NCBI GenBank assembly: GCA_944390115.1 | Contig: CALXOW010000024.1 | Location: forward strand, 1 to 44,042 | Length of the DNA: 44,042 nt | DNA from: an uncultured Anaerobiospirillum sp. | Lineage (GTDB): Bacteria > Pseudomonadota > Gammaproteobacteria > Enterobacterales > Succinivibrionaceae | Direction of reading: 5' to 3' | Shown: piece by piece, positions 4,348 through 34,337 of the stretch | Layout of the letters: each line of letters begins with the position of its first letter | How positions within the stretch are numbered: the first letter of the stretch is position 1 | The notes under the pieces: generated by a model | What the model was told of the DNA's origin: nothing | The model's input: the letters and a program-made list of their open reading frames with translations, nothing else | The model's database searches: none | Program-made: the position numbers and the translations under genes

Positions 4348-4752
4348 TTAGCGGGCTTCAGCTTGCAGCAGGCCTAAGTCGATGTCGTGCTTGAGGTTGT
4401 TGACCCAGCGGTTGTAGTTGCGGTGGATCGTGCCCTCAGCTGCGTTGTACTCCATACCGGTGGAGTTGAGATAGGTGATGTCGTAGCTGTCCTTATCGTA
4501 GGTCAGCTTGACCTTGATGGAGTGGCCGCGTGCGACGTAGGTAGCCTCATAAGTGCGATTGCCTAAGTCTTTGATAATCCAATCGCGCTTAGCACCGGCA
4601 TCCTTAATGACCTGCTTGACCTCAGCGGTGGAGACACCGGCTGGGATCGTGCCACTGAAACTCATCATCTCGGTGGTGGTGAAGGTAGCGCAGGAAGTTA
4701 CGCTGAGCATGAAAGCGCCAGCGCATAAAGCGGTGAGTAAAGACTTCTTCAT
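4348..4752 (-). CDS. Small lipoprotein of unknown function
   Basis: A 134-residue predicted lipoprotein. It has a signal peptide starting MKKSLLTALC and a lipobox LSVTSC followed by Ala, so lipid-anchored export is expected. The mature part holds a beta-rich stretch (TYEATYVARGHSIKVKLTYD) and a C-terminal segment (EGTIHRNYNRWVNNLKHDI) that I associate with uncharacterised small lipoproteins. I cannot assign a function. The start is taken as the ATG at 4752; an ATG at 4758 and a TTG at 4761 are in frame. A good SD (AAGGAG) exists but is separated from the ATG by a hairpin (see regulatory feature at 4753-4799). It lies upstream of the aryl polyene genes in the same orientation, so it might belong to that cluster. 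Confidence 0.75.
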   Translation of the reverse strand: MKKSLLTALCAGAFMLSVTSCATFTTTEMMSFSGTIPAGVSTAEVKQVIKDAGAKRDWIIKDLGNRTYEATYVARGHSIKVKLTYDKDSYDITYLNSTGMEYNAAEGTIHRNYNRWVNNLKHDIDLGLLQAEAR

Positions 4753-4799
4753 GAGCATCAAAGCACAGCTTAGGACAAGCTAAGCGGTGCTATCTCCTT
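4753..4799 (-). promoter_or_regulatory. SD - hairpin - 9 nt - ATG start region (lipoprotein gene)
   Basis: Read on the minus strand: AAGGAG, two bases, then a hairpin at 4762-4791, then exactly 9 nt to the ATG at 4752. The outer stem is AGCAC/GTGCT and the inner stem CTTAG/CTAAG, with a 2x2 internal loop and a 6-nt loop. Without the hairpin the SD would be about 40 nt from the start codon and unusable; folding brings it within about 11 nt. The same layout is seen at dctP, fabD and acpP. Confidence 0.55.
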
Positions 4800-24933: not shown

Positions 24934-25926
24934 TTAGACTGCGTTGTTAGCAGCGGAAGCAGCGTCGTATAAAGGCTTGAGAGCTGGGGTGTCGCCGATG
25001 ATCTGCTCGTGTAATGGCAGAACCTTGTTACGGAACTCGTTGACATCAACATTGATGAACTGAACGCCCATCTCAGTGGCCTTTTGCTTAGCAGCGTCGA
25101 TCGAGCCCTTCCAAGCCTCGAACTCTACCTTCTGAGCCTCAGCCGCAGCCTCGTCGAAGATCTTGCGCTCTTCTGGGGTTAACTTGCTTAAGAAGGCGTT
25201 GGAAGCAACTAATAAGTCAGGGCACATCTGGTGCATATCGTAGGTGAAGTACTTGCAGATTTCACCGTGCTTCTGGTCAGTTAAGGCCAGCTCGTTGTTC
25301 TCAGCACCGTCGATAACCGACTGTTGCAGAGCCGAGTAAACTTCACCGAAGGACATTGGGGTAGCAGCAGCACCGAAGGCTTGCATCATAGCTACGTTAA
25401 CAGGGCCAGCCTGAACACGGAACTTCTTGCCTTGCAGGTCAGCAACGCTGTTGATTGGCTTCTTAGCGTAGAAGTTGCGGGTACCAGCGGTGAAGGCGGC
25501 AACTGGCTCAAAGCCGTTGGTCTTAGCGTTAACGCCTAATTGCTTTAAGATGGCAGGATCGGTGATGAACTTCTCGTAGGCAGCCTCAGAGGTGAAGAGG
25601 TATGGAATCGAGAACAGGGAGTACATCTTGTCAAAGGACTCGAGGTTAGCAGTGGAGACTACTAAGTACTGAACCGAACCCTGCTTGATTAACTCCAGCA
25701 CCTTCTCATTAGCACCTAAGGTGGCGTTAGGGTAGATGCTAACCTCAAACTTGTCGCCTAACTTGCTCTCAACATAGTTCTTGAAAGCAACAGCACCTAA
25801 GTGATCGGGGTGGGTGTCAATCTGCGAGTGGGAGATACGAACGATTTGCTTTTCCTCACCACCGCAGCCAGTGAGAACTAAGGAAGCAACAGCAACAGCC
25901 AGAGCAGAGGCTAAAATTTTCTTCAT
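24934..25926 (-). CDS. TRAP transporter substrate-binding protein (DctP family) with a lipobox
   Basis: A 330-residue solute-binding protein. After the signal segment (MKKILASALAVAVASLVLTG) comes Cys-Gly-Gly-Glu, a good lipobox (LTGC), so the protein may be membrane-anchored rather than free in the periplasm. The mature part shows DctP features: VRISHSQIDTHPDHLGAVAFKNYVE, NATLGANEKVLELIKQGSVQY, GTRNFYAKKPINSVADLQGKKFRVQ (with the substrate-binding Arg) and the YSALQQSVIDGAENN block. The ligand is inferred to be a uronate from uxaC. The ATG at 25926 lacks a nearby SD; the SD GGAGGA is beyond a hairpin (25927-25980). It is the first gene of the unit and has a long upstream regulatory gap. Confidence 0.92.
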   Translation of the reverse strand: MKKILASALAVAVASLVLTGCGGEEKQIVRISHSQIDTHPDHLGAVAFKNYVESKLGDKFEVSIYPNATLGANEKVLELIKQGSVQYLVVSTANLESFDKMYSLFSIPYLFTSEAAYEKFITDPAILKQLGVNAKTNGFEPVAAFTAGTRNFYAKKPINSVADLQGKKFRVQAGPVNVAMMQAFGAAATPMSFGEVYSALQQSVIDGAENNELALTDQKHGEICKYFTYDMHQMCPDLLVASNAFLSKLTPEERKIFDEAAAEAQKVEFEAWKGSIDAAKQKATEMGVQFINVDVNEFRNKVLPLHEQIIGDTPALKPLYDAASAANNAV

Positions 25927-25980
25927 AGGCTAAGCGTCTTGCTTCTACCTGAGATTTCAGGTACGTGCAAGACATCCTCC
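25927..25980 (-). promoter_or_regulatory. SD - hairpin - 9 nt - ATG start region of dctP
   Basis: On the minus strand: GGAGGA (25975-25980), one base, then a 38-nt hairpin (25936-25973), then exactly 9 nt (25927-25935) to the ATG. The hairpin has a 7-bp outer stem GTCTTGC/GCAAGAC, a symmetric 3x3 internal loop, a 7-bp inner stem TACCTGA/TCAGGTA and a 4-nt loop. The SD would be about 48 nt from the start if unfolded and about 10 nt if the hairpin is looped out. Confidence 0.6.
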
Positions 25981-32086: not shown

Positions 32087-32119
32087 AGGAGGAGACCGCA
32101 GCTCTGCGGTTGTTTGGTT
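32087..32119 (+). promoter_or_regulatory. SD - hairpin - 9 nt - ATG start region of fabD
   Basis: A very strong SD AGGAGGAG (32087-32094) is followed at once by a hairpin, ACCGCA-GCTC-TGCGGT (32095-32110). Exactly 9 nt then lead to the ATG at 32120. Without folding the SD is 25 nt from the start. The same layout occurs at 4753, 25927 and 34305. Confidence 0.6.
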
Positions 32120-33058
32120 ATGAAGTCATTTGCAGTCGTATTCCCAGGTCAGGGCTCCCAGTCGGTTGGCATGTTATCCACCTTCATGGACAATGAGGTG
32201 GTCGCTCAGACCTTTGCTGAGGCCAATGACGCTTTAGGCTATGACTTAAAGTCGATCGTCTTAAATGGCCCTGATACTGAGCTCAACAAGACTGAGATCA
32301 CCCAGCCTGCTATCTTAACGGCCTCGATCGCCGCTTACCGTGCCTTTAAGGCCGCTTTAGGCGAGGCTGCCCCTAAGGCTGTAGCGGGTCACTCCTTAGG
32401 TGAGTATTCGGCTTTAGTCGCTGCTGGTGCGTTAGACTTTGCTGATGCCGTTCGTTTAGTGCGTCTGCGCGGTCAGGCAATGCAAGATGCCGTGCCAGCC
32501 GGGGTCGGTGCCATGATGGCGGTCTTAGGCTTAGATGATGACGCCGTGATTGCCGGTTGCGCTGAGGCCTCTCAGGAAGGTGATGGCGTTTGGGCTGCTA
32601 ACTTCAATACCCCAGGTCAGGTCGTAATCTCGGGCGCTAAGGACGCTGTAGCCCGTGCCGGTGAAATCTTCACCGCTAAGGGTGCTAAGCGCTGCGTGCC
32701 ATTAGCCGTTTCGGTTCCATCGCACTGCCCAATGATGCAAAGTGCCGCCGATAAGCTCAGTGAGGCCCTGTCTGCTTTACAGCTTAAGGACGCCGCTATT
32801 CCGGTTTACGCTAATGTGACGGCCGCTGCCGTTACCTCGCAGGCTGATATCGTGGACTGCTTAGTCAAGCAGTTAATCGGCTCGGTCCGCTGGGTTGAGT
32901 CGGTGCAAAAGATGAAGGCCGATGGCATTGAGGCTTTAATTGAGGTTGGTCCTGGCCGCGTCTTAACCGGTCTTAACCGCAAGATTGACCGCAGCCTGGT
33001 CACGGGCAATATTGCCGCCCCAGAAGATTTAGAGAAGGTCTTAGCCTCCTTAGCTTAG
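32120..33058 (+). CDS. fabD: Malonyl-CoA:ACP transacylase
   Basis: A 312-residue enzyme that loads malonate onto the acyl carrier protein. It opens with FAVVFPGQGSQSVGM (oxyanion-hole Gln). The nucleophile elbow is GHSLGEYSAL with Ser92, and the catalytic His lies in SVPSHCPMM. I chose the ATG at 32120 because it matches the family N-terminus; the frame is open upstream but without family-like sequence. Its SD is separated from the ATG by a hairpin. It is downstream of fabH and upstream of fabG, the standard order. Confidence 0.96.
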   Translation: MKSFAVVFPGQGSQSVGMLSTFMDNEVVAQTFAEANDALGYDLKSIVLNGPDTELNKTEITQPAILTASIAAYRAFKAALGEAAPKAVAGHSLGEYSALVAAGALDFADAVRLVRLRGQAMQDAVPAGVGAMMAVLGLDDDAVIAGCAEASQEGDGVWAANFNTPGQVVISGAKDAVARAGEIFTAKGAKRCVPLAVSVPSHCPMMQSAADKLSEALSALQLKDAAIPVYANVTAAAVTSQADIVDCLVKQLIGSVRWVESVQKMKADGIEALIEVGPGRVLTGLNRKIDRSLVTGNIAAPEDLEKVLASLA

Positions 33059-34114: not shown

Positions 34115-34304
34115 TTTCTCTACGCTAAGAGCGGTAGTTGAGTCAGCCAAATCAGGCATGAACAAGAGTGGGCTTAGGTCCCTGTTGCAAAGGCCGCTTG
34201 ATTCTTGGTGGTGAGAACAGTTTTTGCGGATTGGGGGCGGCTCAAGGTAGCCGGTCTCAAGTCAAGATTTCTTTTCACCAACATTTCGTTGGGTGACTAA
34301 CTAT

Positions 34305-34337
34305 AGGACAGATGTGCAAAGCACTCTGACGGGAAAT
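34305..34337 (+). promoter_or_regulatory. SD - hairpin - 9 nt - ATG start region of acpP
   Basis: AGGA (34305-34308) is directly followed by a hairpin, CAGA-(T)-GTGC-AAA-GCAC-TCTG (34309-34328, one bulged T), then 9 nt to the ATG at 34338. A weaker GGGA lies inside the 9-nt stretch only 3 nt from the ATG, so this case is less clear than fabD or dctP. Confidence 0.45.

Follow-up and report, generated by a model that had tools for sequence, protein, structure and literature searches.

How could translation of fabD be initiated in an uncultured Anaerobiospirillum sp. when its strong Shine–Dalgarno sequence (SD) lies 25 nt before the ATG and a hairpin occupies much of the space between them? Gene finders and models of initiation expect an SD 5 to 10 nt from the start codon. 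An earlier note on this DNA had described the same arrangement at four genes of the window (the whole analyzed stretch of 44,042 nt) and had suggested a lineage-specific class of folded initiation regions, perhaps acting as translational switches. We examined the four sites, scanned the source genome and its relatives for comparable leaders, and compared orthologous leaders across the genus and the family Succinivibrionaceae.

Distal SDs and hairpins in the window

All four sites carry an SD or SD-like element, a hairpin, 9 nt, and an ATG, as the earlier note had read them. At fabD, the SD (AGGAGGAG, positions 32087–32094, forward strand) ends in an AGGAG core that touches a 6-bp stem closed by a tetraloop (ACCGCA-GCTC-TGCGGT, 32095–32110). 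A 9-nt unpaired linker (32111–32119) then leads to the gene (32120–33058), which encodes malonyl-CoA:ACP transacylase (Pfam Acyl_transf_1, E 4.9e-38) and whose start is kept by most orthologues. On the reverse strand, dctP (24934–25926; TRAP-type solute-binding protein family 7, Pfam DctP, E 6.7e-71) has its ATG at 25926, a 9-nt linker (25927–25935), and a larger candidate bridging element (25936–25973) composed of a 7-bp outer stem, internal loops, and an inner hairpin, preceded by the SD GGAGGAT (25974–25980). A small lipoprotein-like gene without a Pfam match (4348–4752, reverse strand) follows the same plan, with an AAGGAG SD (4794–4799) 2 nt before an 11-bp hairpin that includes one mismatch (4762–4791) and a 9-nt linker (4753–4761) ahead of the ATG at 4752. 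This gene has a second in-frame ATG 6 nt upstream; the start adopted here, which opens with MKKS, is the one found in three close orthologues. These three genes thus share an SD, 0–3 nt, a stem-loop, 9 nt, and an ATG, and an SD at the normal distance is absent from each.

The fourth site, the leader of acpP (34305–34337, forward strand; acyl carrier protein by Pfam), is a related but distinct case, offering only AGGA, a bulged 8-bp stem, and 9 nt. Searches of the window with ARAGORN and Rfam returned no tRNAs and no RNA families, respectively. When the leaders were folded with some flanking sequence, fold stability gave z values of −0.13 for fabD, −0.84 for the lipoprotein gene, −2.64 for dctP, and −0.45 for acpP. 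Judged from single sequences, dctP alone among the four leaders is predicted to be unusually stable.

Frequency of the layout within genomes

For the source genome (G000; 3.64 Mb in 123 contigs, with the window as contig C24), 1.24 Mb was sampled, together with five relatives. Genes for the leader scans were called with a simple codon-usage caller that is blind to SDs. Among stems of at least 6 bp before all genes, there was no clear peak at a stem-to-ATG distance (d) of 9 nt; four stems were seen at this distance against roughly two per position in shuffled sequence, and many upstream positions held more. A helix scan, which required a closing helix 0–2 nt behind a distal SD, covered 1,021 candidate starts of 774 source-genome genes and likewise gave no excess (3 seen versus 3.2 expected at d 7–8; 4 versus 4.0 at d 9–10). 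The layout as a genome-wide rule was therefore rejected. Smaller, earlier helix scans had yielded 4 matches versus 1.28 expected at d 7–11 in the source genome and 5 versus 0.22 in G012, but this excess is discounted because one gene could be counted at several values of d and because the window genes were included.

These results bear on one alternative, namely that GC-rich leaders fold often and that an upstream AGGAG is incidental to a chance hairpin. The helix scan of the source genome agrees with it closely (7 seen versus 7.2 expected over d 7–10), as does the finding that three of the four window leaders are not unusually stable in their wider context. The comparison with shuffled leaders that the earlier note had proposed gave a divided answer. 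While the simple helix scan showed no excess, a fold-energy scan of source-genome genes lacking a near SD retrieved 4 matches versus 0.25 expected (p ≤ 0.0025; 100 segments), two of which are the window genes that raised the question. For genes of this kind, the same scan retrieved 2 in G007, of which acpP is one (0.04 expected), and 1 in G012 (0.05 expected); G014, G016, and G028 yielded no match, and the outgroup loci (766 genes) yielded 1 versus 0.29 expected. Expectation was likewise surpassed among genes that do have a near SD (2 versus 0.16 in G000; 1 versus 0.04 in G007). With 6 of 679 genes passing at p ≤ 0.01 without a near SD in the fold-energy scan, the class is rare, at about 1% of genes or fewer, and one genome by itself is not convincing. 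A paired comparison of G000 and G007, confined to 28 orthologue pairs with resolved starts and hence without power, found no pair passing in both at p ≤ 0.02.

We also considered the hairpins as dispersed repeats. Seven elements were searched against the 1.24 Mb of the source genome; no second full-length copy was found, some 12-mers recurred up to five times, and this candidate was rejected. The hairpin of a DUF4405 membrane gene was counted twice because it equals its own reverse complement. As a separate observation, the leader of a gene on contig C6 of the source genome (48628–50613, reverse strand) contains three tandem units of TAGGAG + CTTACGTGT, so that an ordinary SD is preceded by a series of SD-like motifs.

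Geometry of orthologous leaders

Distant homologues were excluded from the orthologue counts, which used 10 of 53 matches listed for dctP, 4 of 7 for the lipoprotein gene, and 12 of 23 for metQ. For fabD, the layout is present in 8 of 11 genus genomes (the source genome and seven others) as an SD, 0–3 nt, one stable folded domain, 7–10 nt, and the ATG. The hairpins differ widely, with some outer ends in common: TCAGG/CCTGA recurs in three genomes, and G000 shares its outer ends with its near-twin G003. The cultured strain A. succiniciproducens DSM 6400 carries a fabD leader with the layout, identical to that of G006, and we accordingly treat G006 as this genome or one very close to it. The dctP layout occurs in 9 of 10 genus orthologues, spanning 48–117 nt from SD to ATG; its outer stems are rewritten among species at an unchanged position (e.g., GTCTTGC/GCAAGAC and ACATCCT/AGGATGT). 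Three of four orthologues of the lipoprotein gene, the window copy included, have the layout as well.

Three further genes lie outside the window. The source-genome scan pointed to metQ, and 11 genomes supplied 12 copies for examination, all 12 of which have the layout. Setting aside the source genome and G003 leaves 10 of 10 copies examined, from nine genus genomes, and the hairpins are mostly different. The same scan yielded galM, where 3 of 10 leaders have the layout and a fourth reaches p = 0.018, all within the four closest genomes. For the DUF4405 gene, three of four close orthologues pass mechanically and the fourth does so by eye with its start moved; none of the distant homologues (8 of 12 loci, 28–35% identity) scored as having the layout.

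Other genera of the family contributed 29 distinct fabD leaders. A near SD without the layout was found in 23 of these, the layout in 3, and neither, by our own motif list, in the last 3. The three positive leaders are L017, L048, and L278, the last of which also has GGAG near the start. All four metQ leaders from another genus have plain SDs, so the layout is likely derived. The proposal of a lineage-specific class is thus borne out as a concentration in one lineage, with mostly plain SDs at fabD and metQ in other genera.

Leaders were then pooled from five gene families (47 genus leaders), with a pass defined as p ≤ 0.01 from 1,000 shuffles per leader. The layout was found in 35 of the 47 leaders, and in 26 of 38 once the source genome and its closest relative, G003, were removed; the underlying p-values are optimistic because each leader was scored with the most favorable of several SD cores and because sister genomes (G002/G008, G000/G003) are not independent. 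Across the 35 layout leaders, whose predicted folds range from −7 to −35 kcal/mol, the linear distance from SD to ATG varies from 22 to 117 nt (sd 27.6). The unpaired remainder, i.e., the nucleotides between SD and stem plus d, stays within 6–15 nt (mean 9.8, sd 2.1). The idea of a fixed 9-nt distance did not survive, as d ranges from 6 to 12 and equals 9 in only 8 of the 35. Its companion claim, that geometry rather than sequence is shared, is strengthened by the diverging hairpins and the narrow unpaired remainder. A near SD core is absent from 30 of the 35 leaders. The other five (fabD of G007, dctP of G005 and G006, metQ of G009 and G010) have an SD-like motif near the ATG and could initiate conventionally. 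The computations thus show the layout, its recurrence, and, in most leaders, the start codon.

If the two arms of a stem are kept for each other, chimeric leaders that combine a 5′ half from one species with a 3′ half from another should have shorter closing stems. In such chimeras, the mean stem fell from 5.56 bp (native) to 3.31 bp for fabD, from 5.00 to 3.57 bp for dctP, and from 5.00 to 3.38 bp for metQ; the respective shuffled values were 3.02, 2.93, and 2.78 bp. The drop was small for the lipoprotein gene (4.50 to 4.00 bp, four sequences), and galM showed no loss (3.25 bp native versus 3.75 bp chimeric). Stem maintenance across orthologues, which the earlier note had suggested examining, is thus supported at the level of predicted pairing for fabD, dctP, and metQ, with little sign of it for the lipoprotein gene and none for galM. 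The chance explanation fares poorly here. The stem is lost in chimeras of these three genes; metQ was chosen from one genome, yet every copy examined from nine others fits; and when a similar test was applied to 90 leaders of 11 further gene families from this region, only 2 passed. We regard chance as an improbable account overall, and for metQ, dctP, and fabD it is strongly disfavored.

Two fabD leaders raise the question of whether the true start lies directly behind the SD, making the hairpin coding sequence. In the sister species G002 and G008 (L010/L011), the fabD SD is followed by GTG in a frame that is open into the gene, and the ATG at the usual place is gone. The start in these species is probably this GTG, which would add a short N-terminal extension, and we view the pair as a likely exception that illustrates one exit route from the layout. 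In G001, AGGTGG near the ATG stands in place of the layout. Extending a coding hairpin to the remaining leaders appears very unlikely. In-frame stops interrupt the segment from SD to ATG in 7 of 9 layout leaders of dctP and in 3 of 3 of the lipoprotein gene, so the interior is non-coding there; such stops are few in fabD (2 of 8) and metQ (2 of 9) among the 29 layout leaders of these four families. Segment lengths are not preserved modulo 3, and an in-frame, open, start-like codon 3–11 nt past the SD occurs in only 2 of the 29 (ATT in G007 fabD; GTG in G009 metQ).

The linkers are U-rich, with 48% T and 10% C in the 35 layout tails versus 27% T in the corresponding nucleotides of 366 plain-SD genes. 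This composition may reflect freedom from pairing or contact with a protein, or, in 8 of the 35, a terminator-like run. The last of these recalls an intrinsic terminator or attenuator, whose stem and U-rich tail would stop transcription just before the gene, and those eight tails do have at least five T in their first 7 nt. In the other 27, including galM, the lipoprotein gene, and 7 of 9 dctP tails, no such tract is present, and a stem followed directly by a U-run was not found to characterize the leaders. The elements at dctP and the lipoprotein gene, whose interiors reach ~100 nt, have the wrong shape for a terminator, and an SD upstream of one would serve no evident purpose. Termination is therefore a very improbable explanation.

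The acpP leader is best kept separate, and the claim that four genes are alike holds for fabD, dctP, and the lipoprotein gene only. In an alignment of 22 acpP leaders, five rows of which end before the ATG, a hairpin follows a conserved AGGA/AGGG element throughout the aligned family members. In other genera, 11 of 12 leaders have AGGAA behind the hairpin, ~4 nt before the ATG in the rows that extend to it, so bridging is unneeded there. Within the genus (L031–L038, L041, L044), a GGGAA-like sequence takes the place of AGGAA and the upstream AGGA is retained; drift may have led acpP toward bridging here. The acpP leader of the window also contains a second small hairpin (CCAAC-ATTTC-GTTGG, 34278–34292), which appears as CCGAC...GTCGG in several leaders from other genera. 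Such matched substitutions in the two arms point to an acpP leader with two hairpins in some members of the family.

Putative split ribosome binding sites

We consider it probable, on the strength of predicted folds and comparative geometry, that these layouts are split ("accommodated") ribosome binding sites at which the 30S subunit would pair with the distal SD while the stem-loop bulges out. The SD lies 22–117 nt from the AUG, and the RNA between them is predicted to fold into a stem that starts 0–3 nt past the SD and ends 6–12 nt before the AUG. If the stem-loop bulges off the mRNA path, the 30S subunit could pair with the SD and hold the AUG in the P site simultaneously, and the effective spacing would then be ~6–15 nt. 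The interior of the stem-loop would be free to drift or grow as long as its two ends are kept. A bulged stem is favored over an unused distal SD because the SD is kept at the foot of the stem and because 30 of 35 leaders lack a near SD. We infer that ribosomes use the bridged SD and that translation would drop upon loss of the stem.

A few genes of Anaerobiospirillum and some relatives would carry leaders of this kind in place of plain SDs, namely fabD, dctP, metQ, the lipoprotein gene, the DUF4405 gene, and, in part, galM. Repeated gain of split sites in Succinivibrionaceae is the best explanation of this distribution. The free growth of the interiors suggests, in evolutionary terms, that insertions between SD and AUG may be tolerated if a stem closes them. 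A bolder and more tentative extension, which we rate somewhat below an even chance, is that ribosomes of this family tolerate, and the lineage repeatedly evolves, folded insertions of up to ~100 nt and almost any sequence in which only the ends of the closing stem matter, with some trait of the 30S platform, or the U-rich linkers, perhaps helping. A check for an unusual ribosome found bS21 in 40 of 41 genomes searched and in 10 of 11 within the genus.

The earlier note had instead raised the possibility of translational switches. A regulatory switch or thermometer toggling between bridging and non-bridging forms would be well placed at the initiation site, and a folded bridge is controllable in principle. 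However, we noticed no common sequence or loop motif among the hairpins, whose interiors differ between close species, and Rfam gave no match in the window. Constitutive bridging accounts for the data with less, and a switch seems unlikely to us. Apart from the switch, the exact distance, and the fourth gene, the core idea of a shared geometry with unrelated sequences stands, and it is stronger with the orthologues than it was from the window alone.

If split sites are correct, housekeeping and transport genes with an SD 22 to >100 nt away and a closing stem of almost arbitrary sequence would serve as a natural experiment on the reading of folded mRNA by the 30S subunit. The variation among the 35 leaders, not all of them independent, would allow the contributions of the stem, linker length, and linker composition to be weighed, and strain DSM 6400 offers the fabD layout in culture. 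A full-text search that covered few subscription journals found no chromosomal split sites and no work on initiation in Anaerobiospirillum.

Comparison with known systems places these leaders among structured initiation regions. RNA thermometers hold the SD and/or AUG in a helix. The inhibitory hairpins of phage T4 e, soc, and I-TevI do likewise, according to a review of that phage (PMC3014915). Stable structure in the initiation region is common to all of these, but in the leaders described here both SD and AUG lie outside the stem. The acpP leaders of other Succinivibrionaceae resemble the present leaders in that they too have a stem-loop behind an SD-like element (AGGA/AGGG), and differ in having an ordinary AGGAA after the hairpin. 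The closest counterparts are T4 genes 38 and 25, the former of which had been cited as a precedent, and the analogy fits. According to the same source, structure reduces the SD–AUG distance from 22 to 5 nt in gene 38 and from 27 to 11 nt in gene 25, destabilizing it weakens initiation, and one stem of gene 25 is conserved across about 30 T-even relatives (PMC3014915). As in those genes, an overly distant SD is restored to a working distance by intervening RNA structure, here predicted, and the occurrence is lineage-restricted. What differs from T4, where two phage genes are involved, is the presence of putative split sites in several chromosomal genes, with diverged stem sequences, spans of up to 117 nt, and representatives in more than one genus.
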